DNA of 64,000 bases from positions 1 to 64,000 of the forward strand of contig JAOAJH010000003.1 in the NCBI GenBank assembly GCA_026414305.1, written 5' to 3'. The position numbers and the translations under genes were made by a program. Source of the stretch: Candidatus Aenigmatarchaeota archaeon. GTDB taxonomy: Archaea; Aenigmatarchaeota; Aenigmatarchaeia; CG10238-14. The notes beneath the pieces were generated by a model that searched no databases, was not told the DNA's origin, and was given only the letters and a program-made list of their open reading frames with translations. Positions 37,691-64,000 of the stretch are shown piece by piece (positions within the stretch are counted from its first letter, which is position 1; the number at the start of each line of letters is the position of its first letter).

Positions 37691-37785
37691 TGCTCCCGCC
37701 GGGATTTGAACCCGGGTCTCAAGCTCGAGAGGCTTGCATCCTTGACCGGTTTGTCCTTGGTTTTACCAATCTAGACTACGGGAGC
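37691..37785 (-). tRNA. tRNA-Glu (CTC) with a 20-base insertion in the D-loop
   Basis: Acceptor GCTCCCG/CGGGAGC with discriminator A, anticodon arm CAAGC-CTCTCGA-GCTTG (anticodon CTC), T arm CCGGG-TTCAAAT-CCCGG. Between the conserved GG of the D-loop and TCAAGGAT lie 20 extra bases (TAAAACCAAGGACAAACCGG). Removing them leaves a 75-base tRNA whose D-arm aligns position by position with typical archaeal tRNA-Glu. The insertion is flanked by a GGT repeat, so its exact ends are ambiguous. Confidence 0.88.
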
Positions 37786-45457: not shown

Positions 45458-48400
45458 TCACCTTAGATAAAAATAGTAAAATATATAGCCGCTGTCAGAA
45501 TTAAAGTTATCAAAACTGTCAAAAGCAGTTATTTTATAATTTATCAACTTCACACATATCAATCCAGCTATAATTTTACAACCTCTCAAGTCTTTCAAAT
45601 CATCTTTTTCAAATGCATATTTTATGTCATTTCCATAAATTGTGTGGTTTCTGAAAAAACCTAAAGAATTTTCTGTAACGATTGATCTTGTTATAGGAGA
45701 ACATCTGTCATTCCAAAGAGATTCAATCACAAATGTTTGATTTACAAATTTGACTCGAGTATAAACATTTTCAGGAGGTTTATTATCCTTTATGACAAAG
45801 TTAATTGATTTTTGACCAGCTGTCCAATTCATGCCTCCTGATGAAGAATAGTTGAATGTATGATTGACCGACAAGGATTTGAAAGATAAAGTGATGTTGC
45901 TTCCGTAAAATTCATGAGTTGAGTTTGAAAGCTTGTAGATTACATCGATGTCGCCTTTATTTGCTTCATAAGCATTAATCTTAACATTTGATGGACAATA
46001 CTCGTCATATTTTGCATTCAATTCCATTTTAGGTGTGGCTTTAAATACGAAGACAAATAATGTTGATGGAATGTATGTGTAATTCTGATCATCATTTTTA
46101 ATGCAAGTATAATTCCACACACCAGCTGGAAGAGATGAATTGTCCACTAATGGAATTAAAGTGTTGTTCCTGTACAAATGATCGCCATTGCAAAAAACAT
46201 TGACTTTGTCAGGATATGTGACATTTTCAACTGTAAAATTCATGTTGACGTCAGCCTTGCTTATTATCAAATAATATTCTTCTGTTGAATTCCAGTTATT
46301 CAAATAATCCTTTGCATAGCTCTTCCATTTGTAAACGCCTGCTGGTAAATCTTTCAAGCTTGCATCAGTTTGATTAATCAACACGCCTGTAAAATTGTTT
46401 TCAAACAGAATTATTTCAACACCAGATTCATCTGTCCAGTTTAAAACAAAATTATATTCAGCTCCTTTTCTGTAAGTGAATTGGGTTGATTGATTGCCGT
46501 GCCATTGTGGCGGCTTTTTGTCAGTTTCTCCTTCAATGAAGCCTTGGATGAAATTGCTATTGTTGTATTCGTCAAATACTTTTATATCAAAATAAACACC
46601 CTTTGAATAAAACGTAAAATTAACCCAGTCATGAGTTCCTTTCAATTTTACAAAATGATTACTGCTATAACCAGTTGAGTTTTCTGAAATTATTGCATAA
46701 TCAAGATTTGAAAATCTCTCCTTCCACAAAGTAGAAACAGTATTGCTCTGATTGTCTATTTCAAAATAAACCAGTTCTGGCTCAGCATTGTCAAATATTC
46801 TTGTCCTTCTTTCATTGCCGCCAAAGACAGACCATGCTGGTGGATCAAGAGAATATTGATATCTGTCGAGAGAACCGAACACAAAATCATTTGTGCCGTC
46901 TGAATTTATGTCAGCTATTGCAGGTGATGAAAAGATGTATGCATTTACCTTGTAACTCCAAATAACATTTCCATTCAAACCATTTAACGCATAAATTCTT
47001 GAATCAGAACATCCAACCAAAACATCATTTACGCCGTCAAAATTCAAATCAATTATTGATGGTGATGACTGTATTCTACCGCCTGTTGAAATTGCAAAAG
47101 TCCAATTTAATGTACCATCTGAATTCAAGCTGTAAACTTTTGAGTCATGTGAAGCTATGATAACTTTTTTCTGTCCTGCAATGTTTGCTATGACAGGTGA
47201 TGATGTTATCCAATTTCCTGTGGTATAGCTCCATATTAGCTGTCCATTTGTTGCATTGACAAGATATGTTTTGTTGTCATAAGAACCAACAGCAATCTCA
47301 TAATTTCCATCACCATCCAAATCATCTATAGCAGGTGATGATTCAATCTTGTCTTGCATTGAAAATTGCCATAAAAGATCGCCGGTTGAATTTAATGCAT
47401 ATAGTTTTCCGTCATGAGATCCGACTGATATTATTACATCGCCGTTATAGCTTACGACAGAAGGTGATGATATGATTCTGTTACCAGTTGTATAATTCCA
47501 TATCTTTTCTCCATTTGTTGAATTCAAAACATATATATTCCTGTCATAAGAACCTATGATTATTTCTGGTATGTTGTCGTTGTTTATGTCATATATTGCA
47601 GGGGATGAAAATATCAAGCCTCCTGTAGTGAAATTCCACATCCTGCTGCCGCTACTACCATTAACAGCATAAACATTCCCATCATAGCTTGCTGTTATTA
47701 TTTTCATGTAAGATTCTTGTGTTGTCAACAAAGATGGTGATGAGGCTATGCTATTGTTTGTCAAGAATTCAAACAGTTTCGTCCCATTATAACCAATTAA
47801 TGCATACAATTTTCTATCATAAGAAGTAAAAACAACATCTATATTGCCGTCACCGTCAACATCGCCTATTGCTGGGGAAGAATAAATAAAACCATTTGTC
47901 AAAAATTTCCATATCTCGCTAGCATTGACTGCAAACATCATTGTGTCTGTATAATTTTCATTGCCAGTTGTATCGTTTGCATGTATTCTCCATGCTATGA
48001 CAGTTCCAGCTGGAATTGATGAGTTTGACCATGAAAAATTTGACCATGTTTGGCCGCTTGTCAAATTTATGTCAACATATGATTGTGTCTTCCAAACACC
48101 TGTTTCATTTGTCTCAAGCCATGCATAATCCAAGTCATAATTGTCTGACCAGTTTGCAGCTAACAATATTGAATGGCCGACACCAATCCAGCTATTGTTT
48201 TGAATTGAAAATGTGTAATAAGGCGACGAAAAATCTTCTGCTGTCAAAAATAATGTTTTTGATGAATATGTGTAGTTTTCATTCCCAAGAAATTCTGCAG
48301 TAACATTATACTTGCCTTTTACTATTAGCTGAGTTATGTTTTCAACTACACCTATACCTTCTTGTGTCTGCCAACCCGTAAGGTTTGAATGTACCTTGAT

Positions 48401-51400
48401 TAAACCATTCATGTCAATATATGCAGTTATGTTAACGAAAGATTGCAAAGGCAATGTAATGTCAGATTCGCTGTTGTTTATGTAAAGTCTTATTTGTGTG
48501 GAATTCCTTTCTACAATGTAAACCCATTGATCTGTTTTATTCCAATTATCAGCTGAATCATTTGCATAAAATCTGAAAACATAATTTGCAGGTTTTAGGT
48601 TGTTTGTAACATAATAATACTCATTGCCATTTGCAATGACGCTATCATTCTGAAGAGTTCCTGTGAAATTATTTTCTATAGACACATAAGAAACTTGATT
48701 TTCATCTTGCCATGTTATATTGAAAGTATAACTCCTTTGATTGTATTGTATCGCTGACAAAGGTGATGAAATGTTGTTTGACCATTGAGGTGATTTTGTG
48801 TCTATACGCACATAATATAATCCAGTGTAATTCCAATTTTCATTTTGATCTTTTGCAAATATTCTATAGCTATACAAACCATCCAAAAGAGATGATTTGT
48901 TTATAAACCAAAAACCATTGAAGCTCATGCTTTCATTTAAACCCATCCATTCAATTAAAACATCTGTTGCATCTGCACTTAGGTTTACATAAACCCAATT
49001 TTTGTTAATCATGCTGTTGTTTAAAGGTGTTGGAGCGTGGAACGTGATATATGGCGGCAAAGTATCAACTGTAAATGTTAAATTGGTTTTATTGGAATTA
49101 CCAGCTTTGTCATAAGACAAAACTTCTATGAAATTTGTGCCTTCATTGAAATTTATGTAAACTTCACCTTGATATTCAATATAACCAGAAGAATTCCACT
49201 TGTAAAATGTTTTGTTCAGATTTTTGTCTTGAGTTGTTATGTTAAGCAAAAGTAAGTTATAATTGTACGTCTTATTTGTTGGATTGTTTATTGATATAAA
49301 GGGTTGAGTAAAATCTATTTCAACGTTTGAATAACCAGTTGAATTAGAGTTGACGGACAAATCATATGCAATTGAATAAAAGCTATAGTTCTGTTCATTC
49401 AAATCAGTTACATTGAAAAATGCTGTTGAGTTATACATTTCATCATCGTATATCAAATGATTGCTTTGATTGAAAACAAAAATGTCAATGTAATTCATGT
49501 TTGCATCTATTGCTGTAACATTTACTTCAATAAATGTTTTGTTAATTATAGTGTTGTTTTGTGGTGTCGGATGGACAAAAAAAACCAATGGCTTTGTATT
49601 GTCAATTACAAAATAGCTTGACATGGTATAATTGTTTTTCAATCTTTGCTGCGTTTGGTTTTCATAAACATCTATTCTCAAAAGATAATTTCCATCGCTG
49701 ATAGAATGAGTGCTCCAAATATAGTAGTTTGTTGAAGCATCACCATATTCTGTTGTTATCGTTGCGTTGACAGTTTGATCCAAGTTTAGCAATGTAATGT
49801 TGTATCTTAAAGTATCGTTGTTGAAATCATAAACATCTGACCAAACAATTGTTATTGTGTTTCCAACTATCATTCCAGGATAAGGTTCTAAAATAAATGG
49901 CTGTGTTGGCGGCATATTTAAATAAAAAGATGTAAAGTTTGTCTTTTCTGTGTTGTTTACTGCGCCAAGAGTATCATTTACAAAAAATGTAATGTTGTGC
50001 AAACCCTGAAGTTCGGCATGATATAAAGCAAAAAGAAAGTTGTTGGTTTGAACTGTAAAGTTATCAAAAGTAACATTAATGCTGCCCCATTTTGGATAAG
50101 CACTTTCAGCTTCCAATCCAATAAAAACAATTCTTGGAAAAACAAAATTTCCAGATGCTTCAAGCTGCCATTGAGACTGATTCCATATATAAAATTCAAA
50201 ATTATTGCCAGATCTTTTTATTCTAAATTTGCCTGATGTGTCGTTTGCAGGCTTTGTTTCCAAATAATCAGAAAAAGTGCCATTGTTGACATAGATCTCA
50301 TAATTTCTGCCCAAACCAGACCACTCTGAAAGGGAAATAAACATGTAAATAGGTGATTCTGAAGAGCTGTTTCTTGGTAAAATCACAAAGTTCACAGCAC
50401 TGTCAATATCGCTATAATTTGTCACATTAAAATCAATGCTTATATCAAAATCGCTGTCAATGCCTCTTTTAGATATCAATGTGCATGTAGTGTCTTTCAG
50501 CAATGTCCCGTTGCCTTGAATTGACAAAAATGCTTTGCCATCAAAGTATGATGTACAGTTTTGCTGTCCATCGATCGTTTCTTCTAAAAACCAATTCATA
50601 CCATTATCAAAACTGTCATTTGAAATAGCATAATCTAAATTCAAATTTTCAATTGTACCATTAGGCAATGTTATTTCAGCTATGGCCTTGTCAATTCCGT
50701 TAATGTCGGTAGCATTTATAGATATTGGTGCACACTGGCCACAATAAGTTTGATTTTTAGGAGAATTTATTATTACAGACGGCGGCTTGTTTAAAATAAA
50801 ATACCCTAGCAATGTAAAGCTGTTGCTATATCTTTCAGCCGTCTCGTTCTCATAAACTGTTATTCTAATCGAATAATTGCCTTCAGGAATAGACAAGGTA
50901 TTCCAAAAATAGAAGTTGGTTGTGGAGTTTCCATAATCTTCAACTATTGTTTGGTTTACAGTATAATCTGGATTCAACAATGTAATGTTGTATCTCATTT
51001 TATCATTTTCATAATCAAACACATCAGACCATGTTATCTTGTATATTCCGCTTACAATTTCATTTGGTGATGGCCTAAGCAAAAATGGTACAGACGGTCT
51101 GTCATTTGAAAATTGGATCGTAAAGTTTGTGGTTTCGCTGTCGTTTACTGCGTCAAAGTTATCTATAGCTATAACATTAACTTGATATTCGCCGTTAATT
51201 TCAGTTGAATTGAAAAATGCTACAGAAAAGTTTTTTGCATTGACATTGAAATCATCCCATGTTGCATTTACAAGACCCCATGATGGATAGGAAGTCTCAG
51301 ACTCAAATGCAATGTACAATGTTTCTGGAAAATCTAAAGTTGATGAAGTTTCTAGCAACCATGCAGTTTGATTCCATGTATAAAATTCAAAATTATTTCC

Positions 51401-54400
51401 AGATCTTTTTATTCTAAATTTGCCTGATGTGTCGTTTGATTCTCTGAAAGTTAAATATCCTTCTGTCAAGCCATCATTGACATATACCTCATATCCTTTG
51501 TTATAACCAGTCCAGTTTGAAAGTGAAATAAATGCTAGTTTTGAAGCATAGGAAGATGACGGTATATCCATTATTTGAAAGTTGATTGCATAATCTTTGC
51601 CAAGTTCTTGCATAATTTCAAAAGAAATGTTTATATCAAAATCACCATAAACGATTGATTTGGAAACAGCTGAGCAAAGAAATGCAGTCATTTCAGTGTT
51701 AGGCTGTCCGCTGCCGCTTATACCAGTAAATGCTTTTCCTGAATATTCTTGATTTATATTAAAAACACAAATTCTGCTGTCAAAATTATCGCCTTCTTTT
51801 TTCCAGTAATAACTGCTGCTGAAATCATCACTTGGTTGTGTATTAATAAAGTCTTCATATATCAATGAGTGGTTTGGTGTTAACACTCTTACATAAGATG
51901 TTTTTATGCCGTCTGGATCTGTTATATTTGCTATTATTGGAACTGTATAATGCTCGTCAAAACTTTCAAAAATTGGGTGTTCTATTTTGGCAAAAGGTGG
52001 TGTTCCTAAGTTGAAATGTCTTTGTTCGCTTGAATTATACATTTCGCCGTCAGTACAATTTACAAACCATGTATGATTGCCAAAAGGTATATTATATAAA
52101 TCAATACTTGCAAATGTGTTGTTTTCTACTTGCATGCTGCTTTCATTGCTACCATCCAAATAAAGACTACATGTCATTTGTTGAGTAAAATCATCTATGA
52201 CCGTAAAATTAAATGATATGTCTTGATTTCTTAATCTTGCATTATTTATAGGATCATACAAAAATATTTGTGGCGGCAATGTTTCCATTGAATTTGTATA
52301 AAACTGTACATAATCTTCTCTTATTGTACTGTATATATCATCTGAAGTTGATTCTATTTTCACTCTTGCTATGCCAGAAGAAATATAATTGTTGGGATTT
52401 AGTGTGACATTACATGAAATCAAATAAAAATTATTCTGTAAGGCTGAAACGTTTTGGCAAAAACTTGAATCCCATTTATTTTCTGCAAAATTGAATATAG
52501 ACATGTTATAAACGCCGTTTGTTGTTGAAGAGAAATTTATTGATGCGTTAACGCTTATCAATGAACCTGGAAAAGATATAGAAGAGTTATGTTCTATTTC
52601 TAATTTGTAAAAAGTCCTGTTTATCTGGGTATAAACAGCTGAAATGTTTATTTCATCTGAATAGAATTCTGCAGTATCAAGCCAAACACCTCTTAATCTA
52701 ATTAACCTGTTTGATGATAACAACCAAGCGTTCAGTATTGACGGGTCATTTGCATTCACAGTGCAATTGTAAGCATTTGAAACAGGTAAATTGCTGCTTA
52801 ATCCATGCAAATTACAATAATAATTTCCTACAAAATGCGTTCCGTTCCAAAACGAAACTTCTATGTCAGGCCTATTGTTGCTGTTAAAGCTTGAATTAGA
52901 AGCAGTTGGATTGTAATATGATACTGTCAAAATAGCTGAAATAGATTTTATGCTTGAATAATCATCGCCTGAAAAGCTATATTGATACCAGCTTGTATTT
53001 CTCTCACTAATGCCTGTATAGTTGTAAGTAAAGTGGGCTAAAGCATTATACCATCTTGTCACTGCAGTTGCTGTTCCAGATCCTGCTATTATTTGATAGC
53101 TGCCAGAAGAAGTAACATTGTCAGTAACATCGTCCCAGCATGTATCATATCTGTTTTCTCCTGTGTTCCTAAAATAGCATGATTGTACTACTCTACCTGG
53201 CCTGTTTATACTAGAGTTCAACAATATATTTGCAGCAGTTACATAGCCTGTATAGCCTTTTACGTCAATGTATGCTTGCCTTACGTATGGGTTTTCTTCA
53301 GGCATTGAAAAGGAAAAATTTAGTAAAGCAGACAAATTCAAAGCACTCTTGAATGTCTCGTCTGCAAAATAGCTTACAGTTTTTATTCGGCTTGGTGATG
53401 AGTATATATAAGTTAACGTCAACTCACATCCTCTTGCTGATGTGTAAAAACTTGTGTTTATTGCCTGACTAAAAAGTGTGCATAAAACAGTCGAGCCATC
53501 TGTCAAACTATACAAACCTGTTGCATTATAAAGAATTGTTGATGTGCTAACTTGCTCATCTCTTAATCCTAATGTATATGATGTTTGCGGTGTTGACTGA
53601 CCTTGAACTGATGAGTTCACGCCTATGGTTGTAGTATAAGCTGCTGTGCCTGCACCGCTTGCATATGCTATTGAAAATCTCGCTTTGTTATAAGCTGATA
53701 TTATGCCCGTCGAATTAGGTATATTTATCATTCTAGAAAAAGTAATAGTGTTTGAAGCTGTGTATATACTTGGATCTTGCCCAATCAAATATTTTATTGT
53801 TTTAAGCTGAGACGGTGAATTAGCATCATATTCATATGTTAATGTAAGTTCAGTGCCAACTGTATCAATAGCATAGCCTGCTGTTGGTTGAAAATTGAGA
53901 GTGTGTGCTGTGTTTGTATCAAAAATATTTTTGTATAAAAAGAAATAGTCAATTGTAGTTGTACCTGCATTATCTATTGGTGTACCAGATATTGCATTAT
54001 TACCGTCCAAATTTATATTTATATTCTCGTCCACAGTGCCCAATGGTTGTAAATGAATGTAAGTTTCAAAAAAACTATCCCTTATTTGAATGTTTCTTTC
54101 AGGTAAGTTTAATGGTGGTATTTGAAAATTTGTCGATGAACCTACAGCCAAAGGTGATGTAAGTTGTCCTACAAAAAATTTGACTGTTTTTATTTGTCTG
54201 GGTGAGTCAGAATCATACTCATATGTCAAAACAAGTTTTGCAGATTCCCCCTGCCTTATAGCATTTAGCCTTGTAAAAAGATTGAATGTATATTGACCAG
54301 GTGAGTTTATAAAAGCTAAAGCTGGTGTAGCGTTTGCAGTTATAACATAAACCATCTGTTCACCAGTTGCAGCAAAACCAGCACTAGTTGTCAGTAATGT

Positions 54401-55480
54401 TGTATTTTGTGTACCATTCCAAATTATTATTGTCTGTCCAGCAGTTATCTGTGTGTTGTAAATTATGTTTTTCACTTCAACATAAGCACTTTTTATTTGT
54501 GGGTTTTTTTCTGGGATGTAAATTGTAAATGTTCCATTCAAATCTGTGTTTGCTGAACGCTGAGTCATATCCTGATAAATGTAATATTCCAATGTTTTCT
54601 GCTCTCGAGATGAATGTTTTAACTGTAAAACATCCGAAATCTGATTATCAGACGTCAAGCTTATTTCATAAGGGGATTCGCTAACATCCCAAGTTAACCC
54701 ATCATTAAAATTCAAGTAAGAGTTTATCAAGACCTGATTAACAGTTGAAGCATTACCAGTTATGTTTTTTGTTTGAGTCTGATTAAACTGCAAAACAGGG
54801 TCACCTCCTCCACCACCAGAAAAATGATCAAGATAAATCACTGTTGATGAATTTTCTATTTTAAAGCAAGGCTCTATACCACATTTGTCAATGAAGTAGC
54901 AAAAAGGGTTATCCATATCGCCTTCGCAGTAAAAAACTTTGTTATAGACGCTTGGTAAATGAATTTTTCCCTTAAAATTTGAAAAATCAGATGCCTCAAC
55001 CCATACCATGTCTCTCACTTGTAGCCTGTTCTCAGATGCAAATCTATAGACATTGAAGCTGTCAAAAACTTCTATGTTTTCGTCGCCTGAAACTTCATCA
55101 GTTTCTATCTCAACTTTTTTGTTTGATTTTTTTACGGAGATCTTGTACTTTTCCCCATCAAAAGTAGCGTCAATTCCCCTAATTTTGAATTTTTCTATAT
55201 GCTCATCTTTGTAAAAATCTTCTATTTCTAAACTTTCATTTCCATTTATCAAATACCATTTGTATTTTGCATTGCCTTTCAGTTCATCCAAATAAACACG
55301 GTAGCCGTTTCCATACTTTTCAGAAGTATAATTCTGCCCATGAATTTCAAGAATAGCACCTTTTGCGTTTTCAGCGTAAATAATGAACTCTTTGTCATTT
55401 ACAGATGTCCTTATGAACGTGATTGAATAAACAACTGGTATCAACAATAAAATTAATATCAAAAGCCTGTTTAAAACCAT
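45458..55480 (-). CDS. Giant secreted surface protein, 3340 residues, with beta-propeller and Ig-like modules
   Basis: Signal peptide (residues 1-19) and no obvious C-terminal membrane anchor. Residues about 20-215 form a unique N-terminal region ending in a Gly-rich linker (SGGGGGD near 220). Residues about 230-1000 hold repeated beta-sandwich units with TYEYDS.SPRQIKTVKFF-like joints. Two super-modules of about 397 residues each (starting near 1130 and 1530) contain a lectin-like segment with FRIKRSGNNFEFY. Ig-like/cadherin-like repeats follow. Residues about 2519-2895 contain eight repeats with ..SSPAI.D.DGDG motifs, a PQQ/FG-GAP-type beta-propeller, then more Ig-like units. N-x-S/T sequons are abundant throughout. 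Predicted to be an S-layer-associated or adhesive surface structure; family unknown. Confidence 0.9.
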   Translation of the reverse strand: MVLNRLLILILLLIPVVYSITFIRTSVNDKEFIIYAENAKGAILEIHGQNYTSEKYGNGYRVYLDELKGNAKYKWYLINGNESLEIEDFYKDEHIEKFKIRGIDATFDGEKYKISVKKSNKKVEIETDEVSGDENIEVFDSFNVYRFASENRLQVRDMVWVEASDFSNFKGKIHLPSVYNKVFYCEGDMDNPFCYFIDKCGIEPCFKIENSSTVIYLDHFSGGGGGDPVLQFNQTQTKNITGNASTVNQVLINSYLNFNDGLTWDVSESPYEISLTSDNQISDVLQLKHSSREQKTLEYYIYQDMTQRSANTDLNGTFTIYIPEKNPQIKSAYVEVKNIIYNTQITAGQTIIIWNGTQNTTLLTTSAGFAATGEQMVYVITANATPALAFINSPGQYTFNLFTRLNAIRQGESAKLVLTYEYDSDSPRQIKTVKFFVGQLTSPLAVGSSTNFQIPPLNLPERNIQIRDSFFETYIHLQPLGTVDENININLDGNNAISGTPIDNAGTTTIDYFFLYKNIFDTNTAHTLNFQPTAGYAIDTVGTELTLTYEYDANSPSQLKTIKYLIGQDPSIYTASNTITFSRMINIPNSTGIISAYNKARFSIAYASGAGTAAYTTTIGVNSSVQGQSTPQTSYTLGLRDEQVSTSTILYNATGLYSLTDGSTVLCTLFSQAINTSFYTSARGCELTLTYIYSSPSRIKTVSYFADETFKSALNLSALLNFSFSMPEENPYVRQAYIDVKGYTGYVTAANILLNSSINRPGRVVQSCYFRNTGENRYDTCWDDVTDNVTSSGSYQIIAGSGTATAVTRWYNALAHFTYNYTGISERNTSWYQYSFSGDDYSSIKSISAILTVSYYNPTASNSSFNSNNRPDIEVSFWNGTHFVGNYYCNLHGLSSNLPVSNAYNCTVNANDPSILNAWLLSSNRLIRLRGVWLDTAEFYSDEINISAVYTQINRTFYKLEIEHNSSISFPGSLISVNASINFSSTTNGVYNMSIFNFAENKWDSSFCQNVSALQNNFYLISCNVTLNPNNYISSGIARVKIESTSDDIYSTIREDYVQFYTNSMETLPPQIFLYDPINNARLRNQDISFNFTVIDDFTQQMTCSLYLDGSNESSMQVENNTFASIDLYNIPFGNHTWFVNCTDGEMYNSSEQRHFNLGTPPFAKIEHPIFESFDEHYTVPIIANITDPDGIKTSYVRVLTPNHSLIYEDFINTQPSDDFSSSYYWKKEGDNFDSRICVFNINQEYSGKAFTGISGSGQPNTEMTAFLCSAVSKSIVYGDFDINISFEIMQELGKDYAINFQIMDIPSSSYASKLAFISLSNWTGYNKGYEVYVNDGLTEGYLTFRESNDTSGKFRIKRSGNNFEFYTWNQTAWLLETSSTLDFPETLYIAFESETSYPSWGLVNATWDDFNVNAKNFSVAFFNSTEINGEYQVNVIAIDNFDAVNDSETTNFTIQFSNDRPSVPFLLRPSPNEIVSGIYKITWSDVFDYENDKMRYNITLLNPDYTVNQTIVEDYGNSTTNFYFWNTLSIPEGNYSIRITVYENETAERYSNSFTLLGYFILNKPPSVIINSPKNQTYCGQCAPISINATDINGIDKAIAEITLPNGTIENLNLDYAISNDSFDNGMNWFLEETIDGQQNCTSYFDGKAFLSIQGNGTLLKDTTCTLISKRGIDSDFDISIDFNVTNYSDIDSAVNFVILPRNSSSESPIYMFISLSEWSGLGRNYEIYVNNGTFSDYLETKPANDTSGKFRIKRSGNNFEFYIWNQSQWQLEASGNFVFPRIVFIGLEAESAYPKWGSINVTFDNFTVQTNNFLFALYHAELQGLHNITFFVNDTLGAVNNTEKTNFTSFYLNMPPTQPFILEPYPGMIVGNTITIVWSDVYDFNNDTLRYNITLLNLDQTVNATITTEYGDASTNYYIWSTHSISDGNYLLRIDVYENQTQQRLKNNYTMSSYFVIDNTKPLVFFVHPTPQNNTIINKTFIEVNVTAIDANMNYIDIFVFNQSNHLIYDDEMYNSTAFFNVTDLNEQNYSFYSIAYDLSVNSNSTGYSNVEIDFTQPFISINNPTNKTYNYNLLLLNITTQDKNLNKTFYKWNSSGYIEYQGEVYINFNEGTNFIEVLSYDKAGNSNKTNLTFTVDTLPPYITFHAPTPLNNSMINKNWVYVNLSADATDVLIEWMGLNESMSFNGFWFINKSSLLDGLYSYRIFAKDQNENWNYTGLYYVRIDTKSPQWSNNISSPLSAIQYNQRSYTFNITWQDENQVSYVSIENNFTGTLQNDSVIANGNEYYYVTNNLKPANYVFRFYANDSADNWNKTDQWVYIVERNSTQIRLYINNSESDITLPLQSFVNITAYIDMNGLIKVHSNLTGWQTQEGIGVVENITQLIVKGKYNVTAEFLGNENYTYSSKTLFLTAEDFSSPYYTFSIQNNSWIGVGHSILLAANWSDNYDLDYAWLETNETGVWKTQSYVDINLTSGQTWSNFSWSNSSIPAGTVIAWRIHANDTTGNENYTDTMMFAVNASEIWKFLTNGFIYSSPAIGDVDGDGNIDVVFTSYDRKLYALIGYNGTKLFEFLTNNSIASSPSLLTTQESYMKIITASYDGNVYAVNGSSGSRMWNFTTGGLIFSSPAIYDINNDNIPEIIIGSYDRNIYVLNSTNGEKIWNYTTGNRIISSPSVVSYNGDVIISVGSHDGKLYALNSTGDLLWQFSMQDKIESSPAIDDLDGDGNYEIAVGSYDNKTYLVNATNGQLIWSYTTGNWITSSPVIANIAGQKKVIIASHDSKVYSLNSDGTLNWTFAISTGGRIQSSPSIIDLNFDGVNDVLVGCSDSRIYALNGLNGNVIWSYKVNAYIFSSPAIADINSDGTNDFVFGSLDRYQYSLDPPAWSVFGGNERRTRIFDNAEPELVYFEIDNQSNTVSTLWKERFSNLDYAIISENSTGYSSNHFVKLKGTHDWVNFTFYSKGVYFDIKVFDEYNNSNFIQGFIEGETDKKPPQWHGNQSTQFTYRKGAEYNFVLNWTDESGVEIILFENNFTGVLINQTDASLKDLPAGVYKWKSYAKDYLNNWNSTEEYYLIISKADVNMNFTVENVTYPDKVNVFCNGDHLYRNNTLIPLVDNSSLPAGVWNYTCIKNDDQNYTYIPSTLFVFVFKATPKMELNAKYDEYCPSNVKINAYEANKGDIDVIYKLSNSTHEFYGSNITLSFKSLSVNHTFNYSSSGGMNWTAGQKSINFVIKDNKPPENVYTRVKFVNQTFVIESLWNDRCSPITRSIVTENSLGFFRNHTIYGNDIKYAFEKDDLKDLRGCKIIAGLICVKLINYKITAFDSFDNFNSDSGYIFYYFYLR
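50179..51438 (-). repeat. Recent internal duplication within the giant surface gene
   Basis: Segments 50179-50247 and 51370-51438 match at 68 of 70 positions and are 1191 bases (397 codons) apart. The flanking modules are also related at protein level (FRIKRSGNNFEFY, TWSDV.D..ND..RYNITLLN). The near identity of DNA suggests a recent duplication or gene conversion of this module. Confidence 0.8.
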
Positions 55481-55582: not shown

Positions 55583-57883
55583 ATGTCCAGATTTGTTAAA
55601 TGCTTCATTTTGATCTTATTGAGTTTGAATACTGTAAAAGCATTTTCGCCTTATCTTTGTAGCGATTCTGACGGGGATTGTAATATAGCTCTAGTGAATC
55701 AAACTGATGGAAATTTTGAGATAGTTGATTTGCTTACATACCCGTTCGGTTTTATTCAAGCTAATTTTAATATAAGTTTGCAAAATCAAGAGGAAATAGA
55801 TGATGGCATTATATCCGTAACATGGTATAGTGACGTTGGTTTTGGTGCTAATAACATCAAAATAGATTATTGGAACGGAAGCAGTTGGATAAACTGTATA
55901 TCTGGTTTGACAGAATCGGCAACTATAAGGCAAGATGAATGTAATATAACAGGACTTACCAAACAACAGATAACAAATATTGCTGCAAGAATAAGAGGTG
56001 AAGATAACGATGGCATGCCTAATGCGTTTATGTACATTGATAGTATTTTGCTTAAGCTAAACTATTCTTCGCCACCATTATGGAGAAATCAATTTTCTAG
56101 CAGCGAACGTATATTTTCTGATCAAAGTGTTAATTTGAGTGTGGAATTATTCGATGACATAGGGCTGTCTCATGCATGGTTGGAAACCAATCAAAGCGGG
56201 CAATTGGAAAACTATAGCATCATTAGCATGAATGGAATTGGAAATACATGGACACAAATAAACTTCACATGGCAAAATTTGACATCTGGTTTTGTATCAT
56301 GGCGTATACATTTCAATGATACTACAGGCAAACAAAATTCAACAGATTTTATGTATTTTTTTGTGCAGTTTAGAAGATTGCCGATTTATTGTGCTGATTC
56401 TGATGGCGATTGTGACTTGCAAAGAATAAACAAAAGCGATGATTTGTTTGAAGCAGTTGACCTGCTTACATTTCCTTTTGGCTGGATTGAAGCAAGCGAC
56501 TGGAATTATGATGTACAAAGTGATAAAGAAATTAAAAATGCTTTCGCTGTAATAGATTGGTATAGTGATGTTGGCTTTGGTGCTACCAACATCAAAATAG
56601 ACTATTGGAACGGAAGCAGCTGGATAGAATGTCAGAATCCACCTGTATCTTCAATATTAATAAAGAGCTACTGTAACATATCATTTCTTGATGTCTACAA
56701 GTTCAACAATATAAAAATTAGGATGAGGGGTGAAGACAATGACGGAATGCCTAACGCTTTCATGTACATAGATCAAATTTACATAGAAGCAAACTTTACA
56801 GATGATTCAACTCCCCCTTTATATTATCTAAATCAAACAAATTCTACAATTGCAGGCAGAGCTGTTTTGTTTTCAGTTTTTTGGCAGGACAACATAAACC
56901 TAACAAGTGGCAAGTGGCAAGGTTGGATAGACAATTGTACCGGCTATTTTGTGAATGTTACGCCTATTAATAATTTTGAATATTCACCAGCATGGTCAAA
57001 CTTTTCTACTGTTGTAAATGAAACAAAAGGATGTACCATAAGATGGTTTGTGAATGCTAGCGATAAAATGGGAAACTGGAATAATACAGCCGTATTCGAA
57101 CCTTTCGAATTCAATACAACATCATCTGCATATCTTGAAGTTAGACTTGTAAAACCGCCTGGAAACTTTAACATAGCTCAAAACAAGACATTTTTTGTAA
57201 ATGCAACTGTTTTCTGCAGAGAAGATGATTGTGGTGTTGTAAATGCTACAATAAGGTACAATTCATCATCAATTTATCCTGACACACCAATTAGTGAAGT
57301 ATACGGAGATGTTCCTTTGTTCATAAATGAGTCTATACCTTTTTCAACCAAGGAGTGTCCATATCTTTCAAAAGATCAATTTTGTAACATAACGTGGATT
57401 GTAAATGCTTCAGGTGACCTGCAAACAAGTTGGAGTATTGGTGTGTTATTCATGTCCGAGTCTTTAGAGAATCACACAAAAAATATTAGTTTGTCAATAT
57501 ATGACTGTGCAATAGACATAACATTAAGTTGGAATGAAATAGAGTTTGGTGAGATTTTGCCAAATACATTTGGGAATGAGGCTTTGGGAAATTCAGAATC
57601 TGCCTACAACATAACTTTGTCCAGCGGAAGCTGCGACAGCAACATATGGATAAAAGGAACCGACATAATCGGTGCTGGTATTATCAAAGTAGGCAATTTA
57701 ACATGGGGATTGGAAAGAAATTACACAAATTCATCAAGGATGGATAATGTTTTCAAGCTTGTGAAGGAGAATGCAAAACAGAATGATGTAATAACGACAT
57801 TTTATTGGATTGACGCTCCGATTATTTATGCCGGAAAGTATTCAGGTAATGTAACCATATTAGCAAACGAAACAGGTGTTTGA
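55583..57883 (+). CDS. Secreted surface protein with two copies of a DSDGDC...RGEDNDG domain
   Basis: Signal peptide (residues 1-20). Two tandem domains, about residues 24-160 and 268-405, share CSDSDGDC/CADSDGDC, TWYSDVGFGA.NIKIDYWNGS and IRGEDNDGMPNAFMYID. Ig-like repeats and a Cys-containing C-terminal part follow, with many glycosylation sequons. DSDGDC and DNDG suggest calcium binding. It is divergent from the giant surface gene across about 100 AT-rich bases and appears to form an operon with the next two genes. A surface role is inferred. Confidence 0.85.
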   Translation: MSRFVKCFILILLSLNTVKAFSPYLCSDSDGDCNIALVNQTDGNFEIVDLLTYPFGFIQANFNISLQNQEEIDDGIISVTWYSDVGFGANNIKIDYWNGSSWINCISGLTESATIRQDECNITGLTKQQITNIAARIRGEDNDGMPNAFMYIDSILLKLNYSSPPLWRNQFSSSERIFSDQSVNLSVELFDDIGLSHAWLETNQSGQLENYSIISMNGIGNTWTQINFTWQNLTSGFVSWRIHFNDTTGKQNSTDFMYFFVQFRRLPIYCADSDGDCDLQRINKSDDLFEAVDLLTFPFGWIEASDWNYDVQSDKEIKNAFAVIDWYSDVGFGATNIKIDYWNGSSWIECQNPPVSSILIKSYCNISFLDVYKFNNIKIRMRGEDNDGMPNAFMYIDQIYIEANFTDDSTPPLYYLNQTNSTIAGRAVLFSVFWQDNINLTSGKWQGWIDNCTGYFVNVTPINNFEYSPAWSNFSTVVNETKGCTIRWFVNASDKMGNWNNTAVFEPFEFNTTSSAYLEVRLVKPPGNFNIAQNKTFFVNATVFCREDDCGVVNATIRYNSSSIYPDTPISEVYGDVPLFINESIPFSTKECPYLSKDQFCNITWIVNASGDLQTSWSIGVLFMSESLENHTKNISLSIYDCAIDITLSWNEIEFGEILPNTFGNEALGNSESAYNITLSSGSCDSNIWIKGTDIIGAGIIKVGNLTWGLERNYTNSSRMDNVFKLVKENAKQNDVITTFYWIDAPIIYAGKYSGNVTILANETGV

Positions 57884-57884
57884 A

Positions 57885-58424
57885 TTGAAAAAATTTTTGA
57901 TTGCAATTTTTATTGCATTGTCAAACGTAAATGCACTTGGTGTTCTTGATAACAATAATTATATTAGTATTGAACCAGGCGGCTCGGAAATATACAGCAT
58001 ACTTATATGGGACAAAGAAAACACTAGAATTCGTGTTGAAACAGTTGAAAAGCCTGATTTTTTTTATGTAATTATAAAACAAAACGATTTTTATCTTAAT
58101 TCCAGCTCAGAAAACTATGTATTTGTGGAAAATGATTATTTGCCGACAACAAGACTCGATATTTTGATAAGAGCAGATGAAAAAGCAGCTCCAGGTAATT
58201 ATTTATTAAAATTCAAGTTGACATCTGAAAGTGAAAGTAAGGGACTGTCTGTTTTTCAGGAAAGAATATTTTCAGCAAAAGTAAGCGTTAGTGGCAGCAA
58301 TGAGATTATTACAAGGCCAACACAAACTGAAAAAAATGATTCAATAAAATTGGATGAAAACGTTGCGAAAGTTTTAATAATACTGATAGCTGTCATAATT
58401 GCTGCAATAGTCGTGCTTAAATAA
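57885..58424 (+). CDS. Membrane-anchored surface protein, 179 residues
   Basis: A signal peptide (about residues 3-18) leads to an extracellular beta-domain of about 115 residues, then a membrane segment (VLIILIAVIIAAIVVLK) at the very C-terminus. The middle resembles a beta-sandwich carrier domain. No family is recognised. TTG 57885 begins right after the preceding stop; a GTG at 57876 is an alternative. It probably anchors or assembles with the preceding secreted protein. Confidence 0.68.
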   Translation: MKKFLIAIFIALSNVNALGVLDNNNYISIEPGGSEIYSILIWDKENTRIRVETVEKPDFFYVIIKQNDFYLNSSSENYVFVENDYLPTTRLDILIRADEKAAPGNYLLKFKLTSESESKGLSVFQERIFSAKVSVSGSNEIITRPTQTEKNDSIKLDENVAKVLIILIAVIIAAIVVLK

Positions 58425-58457: not shown

Positions 58458-59690
58458 ATGGAAAAGAAAACAATTTTTTTGATAGCATTGATATTATTAA
58501 CCATAATCGTCAAAATTTTTTATAGCAAAATAACGGGTTTTTTTACAGATGTTGTTGACATATTTTTGAGCAACGCCGAGTATGATGATGTTTGTGTTTA
58601 TGTCCTAAAATCACCCGAACAGATAGTTATGCAGAGGGGCCAAATAAACATGACTATGGAGATTGTAAATTGCGGTAGCACGACTATAGACATATGGCAA
58701 GAAGTTGGTATTTTGAACGAAGATGGTTTTTACATGGCAAAGTTCAACCATACAAAATACAGTCAGGTCAAACCAGGTCAAAGAAACGTTTTTCTGTTTT
58801 CATGGATAATGAATAACCCTGGTGTAAACTACATAATAACAAAAACATATTATGCAGACAAGTATTATCAACATAATTTCAGCGTGCTTGTTACAAGAGC
58901 GCCAGAAAAGCCTATTGAATCCTATCCGGTAAGCCAGCTTTCAGGTATATCTCCATTCAGCCCTGGATATAAAATGGTTGTAGAATTTCAAAAAAATATA
59001 AACATAACACAGGATGAAGAGTACATTCTACCAATAAAAATAAGCAACTTTGGTGATTCTGATCTAAATAACATTTATGTTGTCTTGTCTTCAAGAGACT
59101 TGGAAACAAGAGTTATTTACCCTGGAAATTTAGATTTTCTAAAGCCAGGGGAATCCACAATTTTCATTGGATTGATTAAAGCCCCTGTATGGCTTCCTGA
59201 AGGAAATTATAAAGTAAACATTGATGTTGTTTCAAGCAATACAAAGTTCAATGATACTTTGAATGTAAAGGTGAATGTTTTGAATTTAAAAGAAAAGGCT
59301 AAAGAGCTCATAAGCTATTATTCAAACCTTATTGATCAGCTTGAGAATGAAATCAATCTAATTGAAAAAGAGAAAAATGTCACGATAGCAAGGGAATATC
59401 TAAATGAAGCGAAAAAAGCGCTTGAGGATGCAAAGGACTACTACAAGCTAGGCTGGTTTAAAGATTCTATTGATCAAATGAATGTTGTCAAAGACAAAAT
59501 CGAAAAAACTATAATAGCTATTTCAAAGGCAGAGAAATATCCAAAAATAATTGAAATGCCTGCAATAGGATACAACTATCTAATTATATTCTTGTTAACT
59601 ACATGCATATCGCTCATATTGTTTATAATATACAGAAAAAGAAAGAAGGAAAGAGAACTTATGCCGATAAAAAGATGGTCGTTTATTTAG
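58458..59690 (+). CDS. Bitopic membrane protein with Ig-like domains and a coiled coil
   Basis: Membrane segments lie near both ends (about residues 4-22 and 373-391). The outer part has two beta-sandwich (NEW3/CARDB-like) domains with the motif GLIKAPVWLPEGNYKVNIDV, then a coiled coil (about 283-355). A basic cytoplasmic tail (RKRKKERELMPIKRWSF) ends the protein. It could link the surface structure to the cell interior. Convergent with the coiled-coil operon, overlapping by eight bases. Confidence 0.68.
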   Translation: MEKKTIFLIALILLTIIVKIFYSKITGFFTDVVDIFLSNAEYDDVCVYVLKSPEQIVMQRGQINMTMEIVNCGSTTIDIWQEVGILNEDGFYMAKFNHTKYSQVKPGQRNVFLFSWIMNNPGVNYIITKTYYADKYYQHNFSVLVTRAPEKPIESYPVSQLSGISPFSPGYKMVVEFQKNINITQDEEYILPIKISNFGDSDLNNIYVVLSSRDLETRVIYPGNLDFLKPGESTIFIGLIKAPVWLPEGNYKVNIDVVSSNTKFNDTLNVKVNVLNLKEKAKELISYYSNLIDQLENEINLIEKEKNVTIAREYLNEAKKALEDAKDYYKLGWFKDSIDQMNVVKDKIEKTIIAISKAEKYPKIIEMPAIGYNYLIIFLLTTCISLILFIIYRKRKKERELMPIKRWSFI

Positions 59691-60501
59691 GTTTTCTTAT
59701 TTCTTTGATTTCATCTTCAAGCATATACAAAAGATCTTCTATTTCCTTAAGCTTTAGGTTTATGTTCTCCTTTACATCGTATATTTTGTCGTTTATCACT
59801 TGCTTTTCTTTTCTTACCATATCTATCCTTTTTTCATTAGCCAAAAGCGTGTTTTCAAATTTCTCAAGCCTTGATTCTATGTTTTTTATTCGTTTGTGAA
59901 AACTTTCAAGAATTTGCGAAAATGAATGAATTTTTCTTGCATCCTTTTTCAATTCATTTGATATTTCCATAGAATCCTCATATCTTTGCTTGAATTTTTC
60001 AAATCTTTTTTCATACTCTATATTGGCTGAATTAATGTGAAGAACAACATAATTCTTAAAGTCCCTCATCGAATCATTGATTTCCTTTAATGTTTTTTCT
60101 TGCCTTTCTTGCCTTTCTTCTATCTTTCTCAACCTTTCTTTGATTGAAGATATTTCATTATGAAGATTTTCGTTTATTTTATTCTGCCTTTCAAATCTTG
60201 AGTATAATTCTCTTTTTTCTTGATCAAGTTGCTTGTCAAATTTTTCAATCAAGTCTATTTTTTTGCTGGCTGTTTTATAGAACTCTTCAACAAATTCGGC
60301 CATTTCATCAATCTTCTTTTGTAATTTTTCATGCTCGGTCTTGTCATTTTTTACTAGATCCTCCGCCTTTTTAGCTTCATTTATAGCGGTTTGAATGGAT
60401 GAAGCATAATTGTTTACCAAATCCTGATATTTTTGAATCCACTCATCTCTTTCTTTTTTGATTTTGTTTATACCCTTGACTGTTTTGTTTACAAGGTTCA
60501 T
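59683..60501 (-). CDS. Coiled-coil protein C, 272 residues
   Basis: Nearly the whole chain is predicted heptad repeat rich in Glu, Lys and Leu, with no membrane segment. A short Met-rich start is followed by INKIKKERDEWIQKYQDLVN. The start ATG overlaps the previous gene's stop by ATGA. Last gene in a three-gene coiled-coil run. No family is recognised; intermediate-filament-like or SMC-like roles are possible but unproved. Confidence 0.7.
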   Translation of the reverse strand: MNLVNKTVKGINKIKKERDEWIQKYQDLVNNYASSIQTAINEAKKAEDLVKNDKTEHEKLQKKIDEMAEFVEEFYKTASKKIDLIEKFDKQLDQEKRELYSRFERQNKINENLHNEISSIKERLRKIEERQERQEKTLKEINDSMRDFKNYVVLHINSANIEYEKRFEKFKQRYEDSMEISNELKKDARKIHSFSQILESFHKRIKNIESRLEKFENTLLANEKRIDMVRKEKQVINDKIYDVKENINLKLKEIEDLLYMLEDEIKEIRKPK

Positions 60502-62432
60502 TCAAAATCAACTTCCTGTGCAATTCTGCCTAATTGAAGTTTGTACCTCTCCTTCCAAACTTCAACCTGTTTAGAAAGCTCTAATATTGTTTTTTCCATC
60601 TTGTCAATTCTTTTTTCCATGTCCTTTATATCCTTGTCTGCTATGATTATTTTGTTGTCATGTGATTTTTGTTTGGTTTCAATGTCTCTTACGATCTTAT
60701 TTACATCTGCGACTATCTCCTTTCTGAAAGAGTTTTTCATTTCATTGAACTTATTTATGTAAGACGAGAGAACATCTATCTTAGCCTCTATTGATGCTTT
60801 TTTCTCGTATAGCTCTTTAAGCAAATTATTGAGTTTTTCAACCCTGTGATCCTCTCTTGATTTTTTGTCCCTGTTAAACTCTTCTATTTTCTTGTTCAAA
60901 TCTTTGATATTTTTATCCATATATTCAAAAGATTTTTTCTGCTCATTATTAACATAAGAAAACAGATCCTTTTGATTTGTTGAAATTGATTTTTCCAGCA
61001 TGTTTATGTGGTCTATTAGTTTTTTATTTCTATCTTCCATGTTGTTCTTGAAAACATCGTTATCATCTATGAGTCTCCTGAAGCTTAAATTCAAATCTTC
61101 TAATCTTTCCTGAAGCATCAATCTTTTGTCAACCTCGTCTTTAACCGAATTATCCAAAGACAGGGTAAAGTCTCTTATATAGTTCATGTCTTTTTTCAAT
61201 GTGTCATAAAAATTGTTTGAGTTTTTGGCCAAAAGGTTAAAGCTTACTTCCATCTGCTTAAGTTTTTGATTTATCAGTAAATTTTCATTTACAAGCTCTT
61301 GAGTTGATTTTTCTATTTCTTTTTTTGAAACCCTTCTTGCGTCCTCCAAAACCCTTTTTTCAGAAAGTATTAGCTCATTATTCAATTTTTCATATTCCTT
61401 CTCTATGTCAGAATACTTCTTTTCCAAAATTTTTATTTTGTCCAAATTCAAAGCTATGTCTTTTTTCTCTTTCCATATGTCATTTAAAATTTCTTTTTTA
61501 AGTTCTGAAATTTGAAGCTTTATGCTGCTTTCCAAGTTATTTTTCATTTTTTCCATATGTTCATTTTGGATGTTTTTATTCTGTCTGATTTCATTTTCTA
61601 TATCATCTATACTGTTTTTTAGCTTCTGCAGGTATGATTTTATGTCTTCGATTTCCTTGCTTTCACCTACCAAGACTCTCTTTAGATCATCATCAGATGA
61701 TTTTGCCGCTTTTTCTAAAACCTTAATCTTTTCGTTTATTTTGCTTTCAAGATCGATTATATAATCCTCATATTTTTTCATAATTTGGTTGAAGTTAGAG
61801 TCTGCCTTCAAAAGGGCCTCGAAGCGCGACGCATTCAACTGTTTTAACTTTTCATTCTCTTTGATAATCTCACTTATTTGACTTTTTTGGTCTTTTATTT
61901 CTTTCCTGATTTCATTCAAGTTTTGAGAAATTTTGTCAAAATATTCTCCTGTCTTTTCAGAAACAAAGTTTTGCTGCTTTTTATCTTCCTGTTTTATTAA
62001 TGAGTCTATTTCCTTTCTGAAATCTGAAATAATTTTTTGGTTTTCATGTATTTTTTTCTCGAGCTGTTTTTGAAAATTCAAAATATCACTGATTTTTTTG
62101 TCAGTGTCCTTCAATGCTTCCAAGTCTTTTATTTTTTCTTTGATTTTTTCTGCGTCAATTCTTTTGATTATATCCTCAAATTTTTCATCAACCAAGCTTT
62201 CAACATCATCAAGAATCTGTCTATATTTTTCCAAATCTTTGTTAAGCTGGCTGCTATATTTCTCGCTCTCTTTTTGCTTTAAGCTGATGTCATTGATCTT
62301 TTGAAGCAGAAAGTTGTATTTTTCAATCAAATCAAGTTTTTCCAAGTTAAGTTTTTCTATTGTTTTATTTTGATCATCAATCTTTTTTTTCAATTCAAGC
62401 AATGCACTGCTTAAAATATCAAGATCGTCCAT
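60498..62432 (-). CDS. Coiled-coil protein B, 644 residues
   Basis: An almost uninterrupted coiled coil, rich in Lys, Glu, Asp, Ile and Leu, without Walker motifs or a hinge, so it is not an SMC ATPase. It has no signal or membrane segment. It is placed between proteins A and C with one-base and four-base overlaps, implying balanced production of the three. Likely a structural or scaffold protein. Confidence 0.72.
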   Translation of the reverse strand: MDDLDILSSALLELKKKIDDQNKTIEKLNLEKLDLIEKYNFLLQKINDISLKQKESEKYSSQLNKDLEKYRQILDDVESLVDEKFEDIIKRIDAEKIKEKIKDLEALKDTDKKISDILNFQKQLEKKIHENQKIISDFRKEIDSLIKQEDKKQQNFVSEKTGEYFDKISQNLNEIRKEIKDQKSQISEIIKENEKLKQLNASRFEALLKADSNFNQIMKKYEDYIIDLESKINEKIKVLEKAAKSSDDDLKRVLVGESKEIEDIKSYLQKLKNSIDDIENEIRQNKNIQNEHMEKMKNNLESSIKLQISELKKEILNDIWKEKKDIALNLDKIKILEKKYSDIEKEYEKLNNELILSEKRVLEDARRVSKKEIEKSTQELVNENLLINQKLKQMEVSFNLLAKNSNNFYDTLKKDMNYIRDFTLSLDNSVKDEVDKRLMLQERLEDLNLSFRRLIDDNDVFKNNMEDRNKKLIDHINMLEKSISTNQKDLFSYVNNEQKKSFEYMDKNIKDLNKKIEEFNRDKKSREDHRVEKLNNLLKELYEKKASIEAKIDVLSSYINKFNEMKNSFRKEIVADVNKIVRDIETKQKSHDNKIIIADKDIKDMEKRIDKMEKTILELSKQVEVWKERYKLQLGRIAQEVDFE

Positions 62433-63697
62433 TATTTTCTCAACTCCTTCAATATATTAACTATTTTTTGTTTTCTATAATCAATTGCTTTTTCCAAACC
62501 TTTCTTTTCGTCCGCAACTATTTTTATGAGATCATTGTTCCTCGTCAACCCGTCATTTATTGTTTTCTCTATGCTTTTCAACTGTTCTTCGGTTTTCTTG
62601 TTAAGAGATGACATATTTTGCATCATTATCTGGTTGTTCTTGTCCAAATATCTATACAAGTCCTTCAATGATCTATTGCTTTCGTCAGAAATCTTTTTCA
62701 TGCTGTGATTTATCTCCTTTATTTCCTTTTCTGAAATTCTTGACAAAATCCTGACGTTGTCTTCAAGCTCCTTTATTCTTTCATTTTGCTTTCTCAAAAT
62801 CTCTTTTATTTCCTTCACTTCAGAACTAATGCTTTCAGTGTTTTTTTCAGCATTGACAGATTTTATCAGGTTGTCTGAAACAGATTTGCTTAATTCGTTG
62901 TAATATCTATCTCTATCCTCGATCACTGCATTCAAAAATTTCACAAGTGTTTCAAGCCTTGATCCTATATCATCATAATAGTCTTTCTGTTTGTCGTAAA
63001 CTCTCTGTAAATCTGACCTGAACTCATTTATTTTGTGTTTTAAATCATTTATCTCCTTGAAGGCTACTCTGAAATTGTCTATTACATTTTTTTGTGGTAT
63101 CATTTCATCGATAGAAGATAAAATGTTTTCGAGTTTTTGTATGTCGCTTGAATCTATCAAACCCTGCGCTTTGACGCCATTTCTTATTATATCCATTTGC
63201 TCTTTCAACCCAGAAAGGCTTTGATTTATTTCAGAAACATTTCTTTTTATAGACTCTATCTCATAATTAGGACTGTGTGTGTCAACTACCTGCTTGTTTT
63301 GCTTGTCTTTGCCTTCATCTTCCTTTTTTTCATTTATGGTTTCAATCGCATCTAAAGTTTTTAACCTGTCTTCAATTGTATTCAGTCTAGGCTCCAAAGT
63401 TTTTTTGAACTCTTCGACAAGGGTTGATATCTCCTCTTTTGACTTGCCTCTACCAGCTTTCTTTTCAATGTTGTCAAGAACTGTTTTTATATCTTGAAAT
63501 TTAAGCTCGAATTTTTCATTCATTTCTTTTAGTTTTGTATCTATCAAATTTTCAACTTCAGGCAAGCCGTTTTTGTCAACATTACTCGACAATTCTTCAA
63601 TTATATCAACAAGACTGTCAACTTTTTTCTTTAATTGCTCTTCTGTTTCCTTGCCTTTAACCTCCTTTTCAACTGGTTGAGCTGCTTTTTTGGCCAT
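62432..63697 (-). CDS. Coiled-coil protein A, 421 residues
   Basis: A short Lys/Ala/Pro-containing N-terminus (MAKKAAQPVEKEVKGKETEE) precedes a long coiled coil with a few breaks around residues 75-130. No enzymatic motif or membrane segment is visible. ATG follows AGGTG. It is separated from the MinD-like gene upstream by 58 bases containing a TATA-like sequence, so the trio may be co-transcribed with that ATPase or have its own promoter. Confidence 0.72.
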   Translation of the reverse strand: MAKKAAQPVEKEVKGKETEEQLKKKVDSLVDIIEELSSNVDKNGLPEVENLIDTKLKEMNEKFELKFQDIKTVLDNIEKKAGRGKSKEEISTLVEEFKKTLEPRLNTIEDRLKTLDAIETINEKKEDEGKDKQNKQVVDTHSPNYEIESIKRNVSEINQSLSGLKEQMDIIRNGVKAQGLIDSSDIQKLENILSSIDEMIPQKNVIDNFRVAFKEINDLKHKINEFRSDLQRVYDKQKDYYDDIGSRLETLVKFLNAVIEDRDRYYNELSKSVSDNLIKSVNAEKNTESISSEVKEIKEILRKQNERIKELEDNVRILSRISEKEIKEINHSMKKISDESNRSLKDLYRYLDKNNQIMMQNMSSLNKKTEEQLKSIEKTINDGLTRNNDLIKIVADEKKGLEKAIDYRKQKIVNILKELRK

Positions 63698-63755
63698 TGA
63701 TACACCTAATGCTAAAACTAATTTTGATATCTTGAAATAAATATTTAATTAAGTT

Positions 63756-64000
63756 TTACCAAAATTTTAATCTGCTTATAAAGCTAGAAACAGGATTTTG
63801 TTTTTCGTAATATTCGCCTATTAGCATTGCAGCTAGAGATTTTATTTCTTTTGACGCTGGTGAGTTTGGATACAACACAACTGTTGGCACCTTTGCAGAT
63901 AGACTTCTTGGGACATTTTTATCGTCTGGTATTACAGATATTACTGGAAGTTCAGAAAGCTTTTCGACTTCATCCTTTGATAACTCGTATTTTTCCCTTT
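63756..64000 (-). CDS. minD: Second MinD/ParA-family ATPase, C-terminal 81 residues only (runs off right edge)
   Basis: The reading frame, open to the window edge, ends at a TAA at 63756. The visible part reads LPVISVIPDDKNVPRSLSAK, then VVLYPNSPASKEIKSLAAML, and closes with FISRLKFW, an amphipathic tail. It aligns clearly with the C-terminus of the MinD at 5089-5856 (IPVVSEIPEDPNIEKAI, YPNSPAAIEIKKLAAFL). The ATPase motifs lie outside the window. It is immediately upstream of the coiled-coil trio. Confidence 0.8.
   Translation of the reverse strand, partial: REKYELSKDEVEKLSELPVISVIPDDKNVPRSLSAKVPTVVLYPNSPASKEIKSLAAMLIGEYYEKQNPVSSFISRLKFW

Follow-up and report, generated by a model that had tools for sequence, protein, structure and literature searches.

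To date, Haloferax is the only organism in which the function of archaeal MinD proteins has been studied. In this organism MinD4 and MinD2 position the archaellum and the chemoreceptors, and the introduction of the same work describes MinD as being encoded only by Euryarchaeota (PMC11588486). The Ted loci comprise a VirB4/HerA-type translocation system together with a VirC1-like ATPase of the MinD/ParA kind (PMC9905601). A search of the open-access literature returned no description of an operon composed of MinD and three coiled-coil genes, nor of an archaeal giant surface protein fused to a HerA domain. Here we describe both for a member of the Candidatus Aenigmatarchaeota, an archaeal phylum of small genomes in which several MinDs occur, beyond what the Euryarchaeota-only statement covers. 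The genome size of 0.82 Mb and archaeal genes such as that for eIF2 gamma point to a DPANN-type archaeon. One of these MinDs has conserved coiled-coil partners of its own and is tied to giant surface proteins, which such cells may use to touch others.

The locus lies at the end of the window, by which we mean the whole stretch of 64,000 nucleotides that was analysed. The first-pass annotation had reported three consecutive genes there, here named A, B and C, which encode 421, 644 and 272 residues, overlap by one and four bases and follow a MinD gene. Coordinates and lengths proved exact:

63756 to the window end (63998-64000), minus strand: MinD-family ATPase, last 80 codons, with the amphipathic C-terminal tail NPVSSFISRLKFW
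62432-63697, minus strand: A, 421 aa, coiled coil, putative CC1 orthologue (see below), with about 100 N-terminal and about 35 C-terminal residues conserved
60498-62432, minus strand: B, 644 aa, coiled coil, putative CC2 orthologue, with about 60 N-terminal and about 40 C-terminal residues conserved and a rod that varies in length and sequence
59683-60501, minus strand: C, 272 aa, coiled coil, putative CC3 orthologue, with about 40 N-terminal residues conserved

A and B share one base in the junction TAATG, B and C share the four bases ATGA, and a gap of 58 nt separates A from MinD. All three proteins had been called nearly pure coiled coils, which agrees with a 3.5-residue hydrophobic periodicity far above that of shuffled sequences (z 11 for A, 11 for B and 19 for C); the same periodicity is absent from MinD (z 0). 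Single-sequence AlphaFold2 predicts nothing but helices both for C, which has three long ones (mean pLDDT 76), and for A (pLDDT 62, with the first half at low confidence). Profile searches, suggested as a check at first pass, assigned A, B or C to no Pfam or NCBIfam model at its cut-off and hence to no characterised unrelated family, and the earlier remark that no named system has this set of genes is in line with this and with the literature search. The matches of A-C to SMC, Rad50, tropomyosin and FlaC_arch all stay below cut-off and were set aside as the similarity that coiled coils generally share, and an 82% DNA match of gene C on contig C13 was discounted as it is 39 bp long.

The full MinD has 257 aa, and its gene runs on to contig position 64529 when the contig is read past the window. 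With 225.5 bits it exceeds the curated cut-off (201.75) of the archaeal MinD model TIGR01969, its deviant Walker A motif KGGVGKTT is intact and invariant across the MinD alignment, and the nearest solved structures are the archaeal MinDs 1hyq, 1g3q and 1ion of Archaeoglobus and Pyrococcus. The amphipathic tail noticed at first pass was recovered as well: the C-terminus is amphipathic and basic, with a helical moment of 0.38-0.52 in the genus compared to 0.48 for the tail of Escherichia coli MinD. Hydrophobic/basic tails of the MinD type are found by sequence in the genus and in all module MinDs inspected, and the C-terminal amphipathic helix is a predicted membrane-binding element. The genome encodes four MinD-type genes. 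The flanks of the paralogues at C10:97331, at window positions 5089-5856 and at C12:136317 were read and hold no neighbours that resemble the coiled-coil trio; the second of these paralogues lies within the window itself, without coiled-coil neighbours. Upstream of the module MinD, C12:64593-65033 encodes a multi-TM protein of 146 aa with a HELGH motif, which looks M50-like by eye and gave no match in Pfam; ORFs resembling it occupy the same place in other genomes of the genus.

Following the gene order in relatives, the second check suggested at first pass, revealed MinD-A-B-C in the genus and far beyond it. Within the genus three other genomes were compared, and the order is found in this genome (G000), in G003, in G001 and in G002, where the copy ends inside A at the end of the contig. 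Identities amount to 75-90% for MinD, 53-72% for A, 40-64% for B and 51-72% for C. Both gene overlaps (A/B and B/C) are retained in the two complete copies, G001 and G003, and each time a convergent gene for a membrane protein of 410 aa, S, stands behind C. Conservation of all three coiled-coil proteins peaks at their termini, and the rods differ in length and sequence. In the B protein of G001 (L050:9753-12029) the conserved N-terminal segment is present twice in tandem, a partial internal duplication. Other genera of the same family are devoid of A-B-C, which makes the distribution patchy.

A plain sequence search with A and B gives matches in the genus only, plus one weak match of B in G019 (E 3.6e-4). 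A module restricted to the genus was rejected and a wider one recognised, because tracing MinD through the class and comparing the protein ends showed distant orthologues. This comparison covered 156 genomes of the class, which is the whole phylum among the genomes compared. Related MinDs elsewhere in the class are 53-63% identical. In the families f9 and f15 MinD is followed by a single-TM protein of about 90 aa and then by three coiled-coil proteins that we designate CC1 (about 630-850 aa), CC2 (about 640-1390 aa) and CC3 (about 400-1130 aa in complete copies), whereas f32 differs in that the coiled-coil genes are divergent from MinD.

When profiles of the ends of CC1, CC2 and CC3, built without the genus, were searched against 2,351 ORFs including about 129 coiled-coil-like ones, A, B and C of the genus came out at or near the top among the non-members, and at the matching termini. 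With the N-terminal profile of CC3, the best matches beyond the CC3 family itself are the C proteins of all three genomes (ranks 7-9, E 6e-5 to 3e-4; next 0.05), and with the C-terminal profile of CC2 the best such match is B of G001 (rank 8, E 2e-4; next 0.14). The C-terminal profile of CC1 finds the C-termini of A from G003 (E 0.0015) and from G000 (E 0.009), with one unrelated ORF ranking just above. In the reverse direction, the N-terminus of the genus B finds CC2 of G133 (E 5e-6) and that of the genus A finds CC1 of G140 (E 9e-5); the C-terminal profile of the genus A did not recover CC1 in the reciprocal search. Since the matches fall at matching protein ends and are in accord with the gene order, we take A, B and C as very divergent but recognisable orthologues of CC1, CC2 and CC3, respectively. 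This link is drawn from short terminal segments and gene order, and homology statistics carry less weight for coiled coils than they do for globular proteins. A wider contig search with the MinD profile, in which 25-39% of the matches were MinDs and the P-loop pattern was dominant, led to four archaeal loci that were read and that showed no comparable coiled-coil trio.

The N-terminal profile of B/CC2 occurs in 18 of the 156 genomes at E <= 1e-4, and because it is restricted to these, MinD-A-B-C is an accessory system and no general cytoskeleton. A MinD of this group (E <= 1e-72) is located within 5 kb of B in 14 of the 16 genomes whose contigs allow a verdict, the exceptions being G111 and G120, where B is about 355 kb and about 40 kb away from this MinD, respectively. 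If genes are simply placed at random, with common descent left out of account, such closeness would arise by chance about once in 1e20, and co-occurrence statistics of this kind are inflated by the relatedness of the genomes. Of the 70 MinDs with readable surroundings, 43 belong to this half of the tree and 27 to the other; at least two coiled-coil neighbours accompany 15 of the former and 0 of the latter.

This distribution bears on two other ways to understand the module. A-B-C could be a self-assembling cytoskeletal or cell-shape system, made of filaments or a submembrane cage, to which MinD serves as membrane linker and the surface genes are mere neighbours. A-C are indeed long coiled coils without enzymatic motifs, and MinD2 affects the cell shape of Haloferax (PMC11588486), but the accessory spread (18/156) and the linkage to giant surface and HerA genes, which is repeated in three families and described below, do not fit what one would expect if cell shape in general depended on it, and we therefore regard this as unlikely. 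Alternatively, MinD and the coiled coils could position FtsZ and thereby place the division site in a Min- or PomXYZ-like manner. The protein belongs to the MinD family, PomX, PomY and PomZ unite a ParA/MinD ATPase and its partners in one complex (PMC7993993, PMC13170346), and FtsZ is encoded in the window (17770-18936). However, FtsZ is 41 kb apart from the module, B is missing from 138 of the 156 relatives, the scanned neighbours of the module include no MinC- or MinE-like match, and Haloferax divides unaffected when all four of its MinDs are deleted (PMC11588486), which leaves a role in division very improbable.

On the other side of C, the module is bordered by genes for surface proteins:

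58458-59690, plus strand: S, 410 aa, with an N-terminal anchor, a beta-rich and helical extracellular part, a C-terminal TM segment and a basic cytoplasmic tail ending in PIKRWSFI
57876-58424, plus strand: T, 182 aa, secreted or membrane protein, partner of S in relatives, with a homologue beside S and MinD in G020
55583-57883, plus strand: V, 766 aa, secreted and beta-rich, with homologues that accompany S, T and MinD in G060, G071 and G100, and S in G028
45458-55480, minus strand: giant surface protein, 3340 aa, with FG-GAP/beta-propeller domains, candidate cargo

S is convergent with C and overlaps it by 8 bp. A neighbouring surface protein with a basic cytoplasmic tail had already been pointed out at first pass, and S is real and conserved: its tail ends in PIKRWSF(I) in all three genomes with an intact S, an ending absent from all other ORFs compared in that search. 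Proteins of the S, T and V types recur beside related MinDs in G020, G028, G032, G060 and G071, and G003 and G001 have a giant surface ORF in the place of the 3340-aa protein. Giant or S-type surface proteins are regular neighbours of MinD-A-B-C. Coiled-coil proteins near surface structures in a DPANN-type genome (PMC11291902) also bring to mind the type-IV-pilus-linked CCP loci of DPANN archaea described by Hamm et al. (2024). Those loci are defined by CpaF, TadC or pilin genes beside the CCP, but none was recognised next to MinD-A-B-C in the relatives read or, here, among the neighbouring ORFs, which were listed and the larger ones scanned; that A-C belong to these loci is thus extremely unlikely.

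Three further features of the window were recorded at other positions. A gene of the SufB/SufD family (8922-11384) is split by an intein-like insert with a LAGLIDADG domain, a protein with a lytic-transglycosylase-like (SLT) domain is encoded at 19198-20223 close to FtsZ in this archaeal genome, and at 37691-37785 ARAGORN calls a tRNA-like gene whose two-base anticodon it leaves undetermined.

The linkage to surface proteins extends to a larger locus, found in members of f9, f15 and f32. In G038, G051, G112, G113, G144 and G146 a giant surface::HerA gene, the coiled-coil gene ccF and the gene of a giant S-type protein of 1,971-2,104 aa directly precede the module, and in G122 (f32) the giant S-type gene, ccF, surface::HerA and the module genes are likewise together in another orientation. 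The surface::HerA giant is extracellular for most of its length, crosses the membrane and ends in a HerA-type ATPase in the cytoplasm, and this domain matches Pfam DUF87 with E 1.7e-8 and 35.3 bits (cut-off 23.2). Nearly all ccF genes across the class are directly behind a surface::HerA gene or one gene away. In f9, f15 and f32 a protein of 220 aa, F, is encoded just upstream of MinD, and F is present in 18 of 18 genomes with B versus 6 of the 138 others. In the genus the HerA-fused giant and ccF are not adjacent to MinD-A-B-C, and in the genome analysed here they and F lie 15-52 kb from it, outside the window:

C12:115927-116637: F homologue, 1.5 kb from the ORF of 11,248 aa
C12:80684-114430: surface::HerA giant ORF, 11,248 codons, with N-terminal hydrophobic segments, a TM segment near residue 10,850 and a P-loop at 10,934
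C12:79250-80638: ccF, coiled coil, next after the 11,248-aa ORF; MinD-A-B-C starts about 15 kb further

The 11,248-aa ORF contains 523 N-glycosylation sequons, one late TM segment and the C-terminal HerA-type ATPase. A second protein of the surface::HerA kind, with 2,204 aa, is encoded at C16:3688-10302 and has a ccF gene of its own. Behind the first ccF, three proteins were recognised by reading C12:76695-79249: one PAS/histidine kinase-like, one membrane protein and one response-regulator receiver. A short motif of the type LLKSLEDEY..G.IS...Y.E.K..N is common to this ccF (C12:79250-80638) and to the cytoplasmic tail of the S-type giant of G030 (L052:5282-9223), and it is possibly a shared docking element. 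As to the extent of the module, the first-pass proposal of MinD-A-B-C with a link to surface proteins stands, but it drew the set too small, since the surface::HerA giant, ccF and F have to be added. The two outcomes that had been named at first pass as refuting it, a gene order lost in relatives and clear homology of the coiled coils to a characterised unrelated family, were both looked for, and each check favoured the idea. A-B-C are not required for the giant::HerA-ccF loci, because many such loci in the phylum have no A-B-C nearby.

The HerA domain on the linked giant, with its DUF87 match and a weak match to CedD, also lends some weight to a function in DNA or chromosome handling, either by a ParA-type ATPase with SMC-like coiled coils or by a VirC1-like MinD that feeds DNA to a HerA-type translocase as in Ced or Ted, all the more as Ted loci pair a VirB4-like ATPase with MinD/ParA (PMC9905601). 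Yet the MinDs of the module have predicted membrane-binding tails and belong to the MinD type, not to ParA, the matches to CedD and SMC fall far short of their cut-offs, and an unsystematic reading around the module recognised neither a CedA channel nor a pilin. Such a function appears quite unlikely to us.

We lean towards the reading that MinD-A-B-C is associated with the membrane and serves to position and anchor giant proteins of the cell surface, and consider its prospects slightly better than even. For localisation, docking and cargo we infer the following course. MinD would act as an ATP-switched dimer that binds the inner face of the membrane via its C-terminal amphipathic helix. A, B and C would be cytoplasmic rods, whose conserved ends may dock to one another, to MinD and to those parts of the surface apparatus that reach into the cytoplasm, and whose rods may serve as length-tolerant spacers. 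The apparatus would comprise the giant extracellular proteins, including the one with TM segment and cytoplasmic HerA-type domain, ccF, and the S-type proteins with their basic cytoplasmic tails, and cycling of MinD could bring the complex to a pole or to a site of contact, or hold it clustered. More tentatively, and as a possibility that we rate well below the positioning and anchoring role as such, the parts could form an envelope-spanning machine in which the giants, one of them fused to a HerA pump, stand on a MinD-controlled base of ccF, A, B and C with F as accessory, and which possibly takes up or passes on macromolecules at sites of contact with a host or partner. If the link of MinD-A-B-C to the giant surface proteins is right, it would provide named and testable parts for the way in which a machine for contact or transport is brought to its place in minimal archaea.

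Among the described systems, MinD4 and MinD2 of Haloferax are alike in being archaeal MinD-type ATPases that place surface machines and not division (PMC11588486). They differ in that for Haloferax no operon dedicated to three coiled-coil proteins has been described, and in the link to giant surface and HerA genes that MinD shows here. Ted and Ced share the co-encoding of a MinD/ParA-family ATPase with a membrane ATPase of the HerA/VirB4 superfamily (PMC9905601), but in the present system the HerA domain is part of a fusion with a giant extracellular protein, and three coiled-coil genes are added. In the DPANN CCP loci coiled-coil proteins adjoin predicted host-interaction structures (PMC11291902). 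However, these are type-IV-pilus loci with CpaF and TadC, the main text makes no mention of MinD, and MinD-A-B-C is distinct from the published locus by its defining neighbours (PMC11291902). PomXYZ of Myxococcus also combines a ParA/MinD ATPase with partner proteins that form one large cluster (PMC7993993). PomZ associates with the nucleoid, and it is FtsZ that the complex positions, whereas here MinD has a membrane-type tail and surface-protein neighbours; homology to PomXYZ was not found when A-C were scored against Pfam and NCBIfam, where no family was above cut-off. The logic of the module therefore seems comparable to that of MinD4 and the archaellum, of VirC1/Ted and of PomXYZ, and it is probably set apart from them by homology, by its partners or by the preference for membrane or nucleoid, wherever these were compared.
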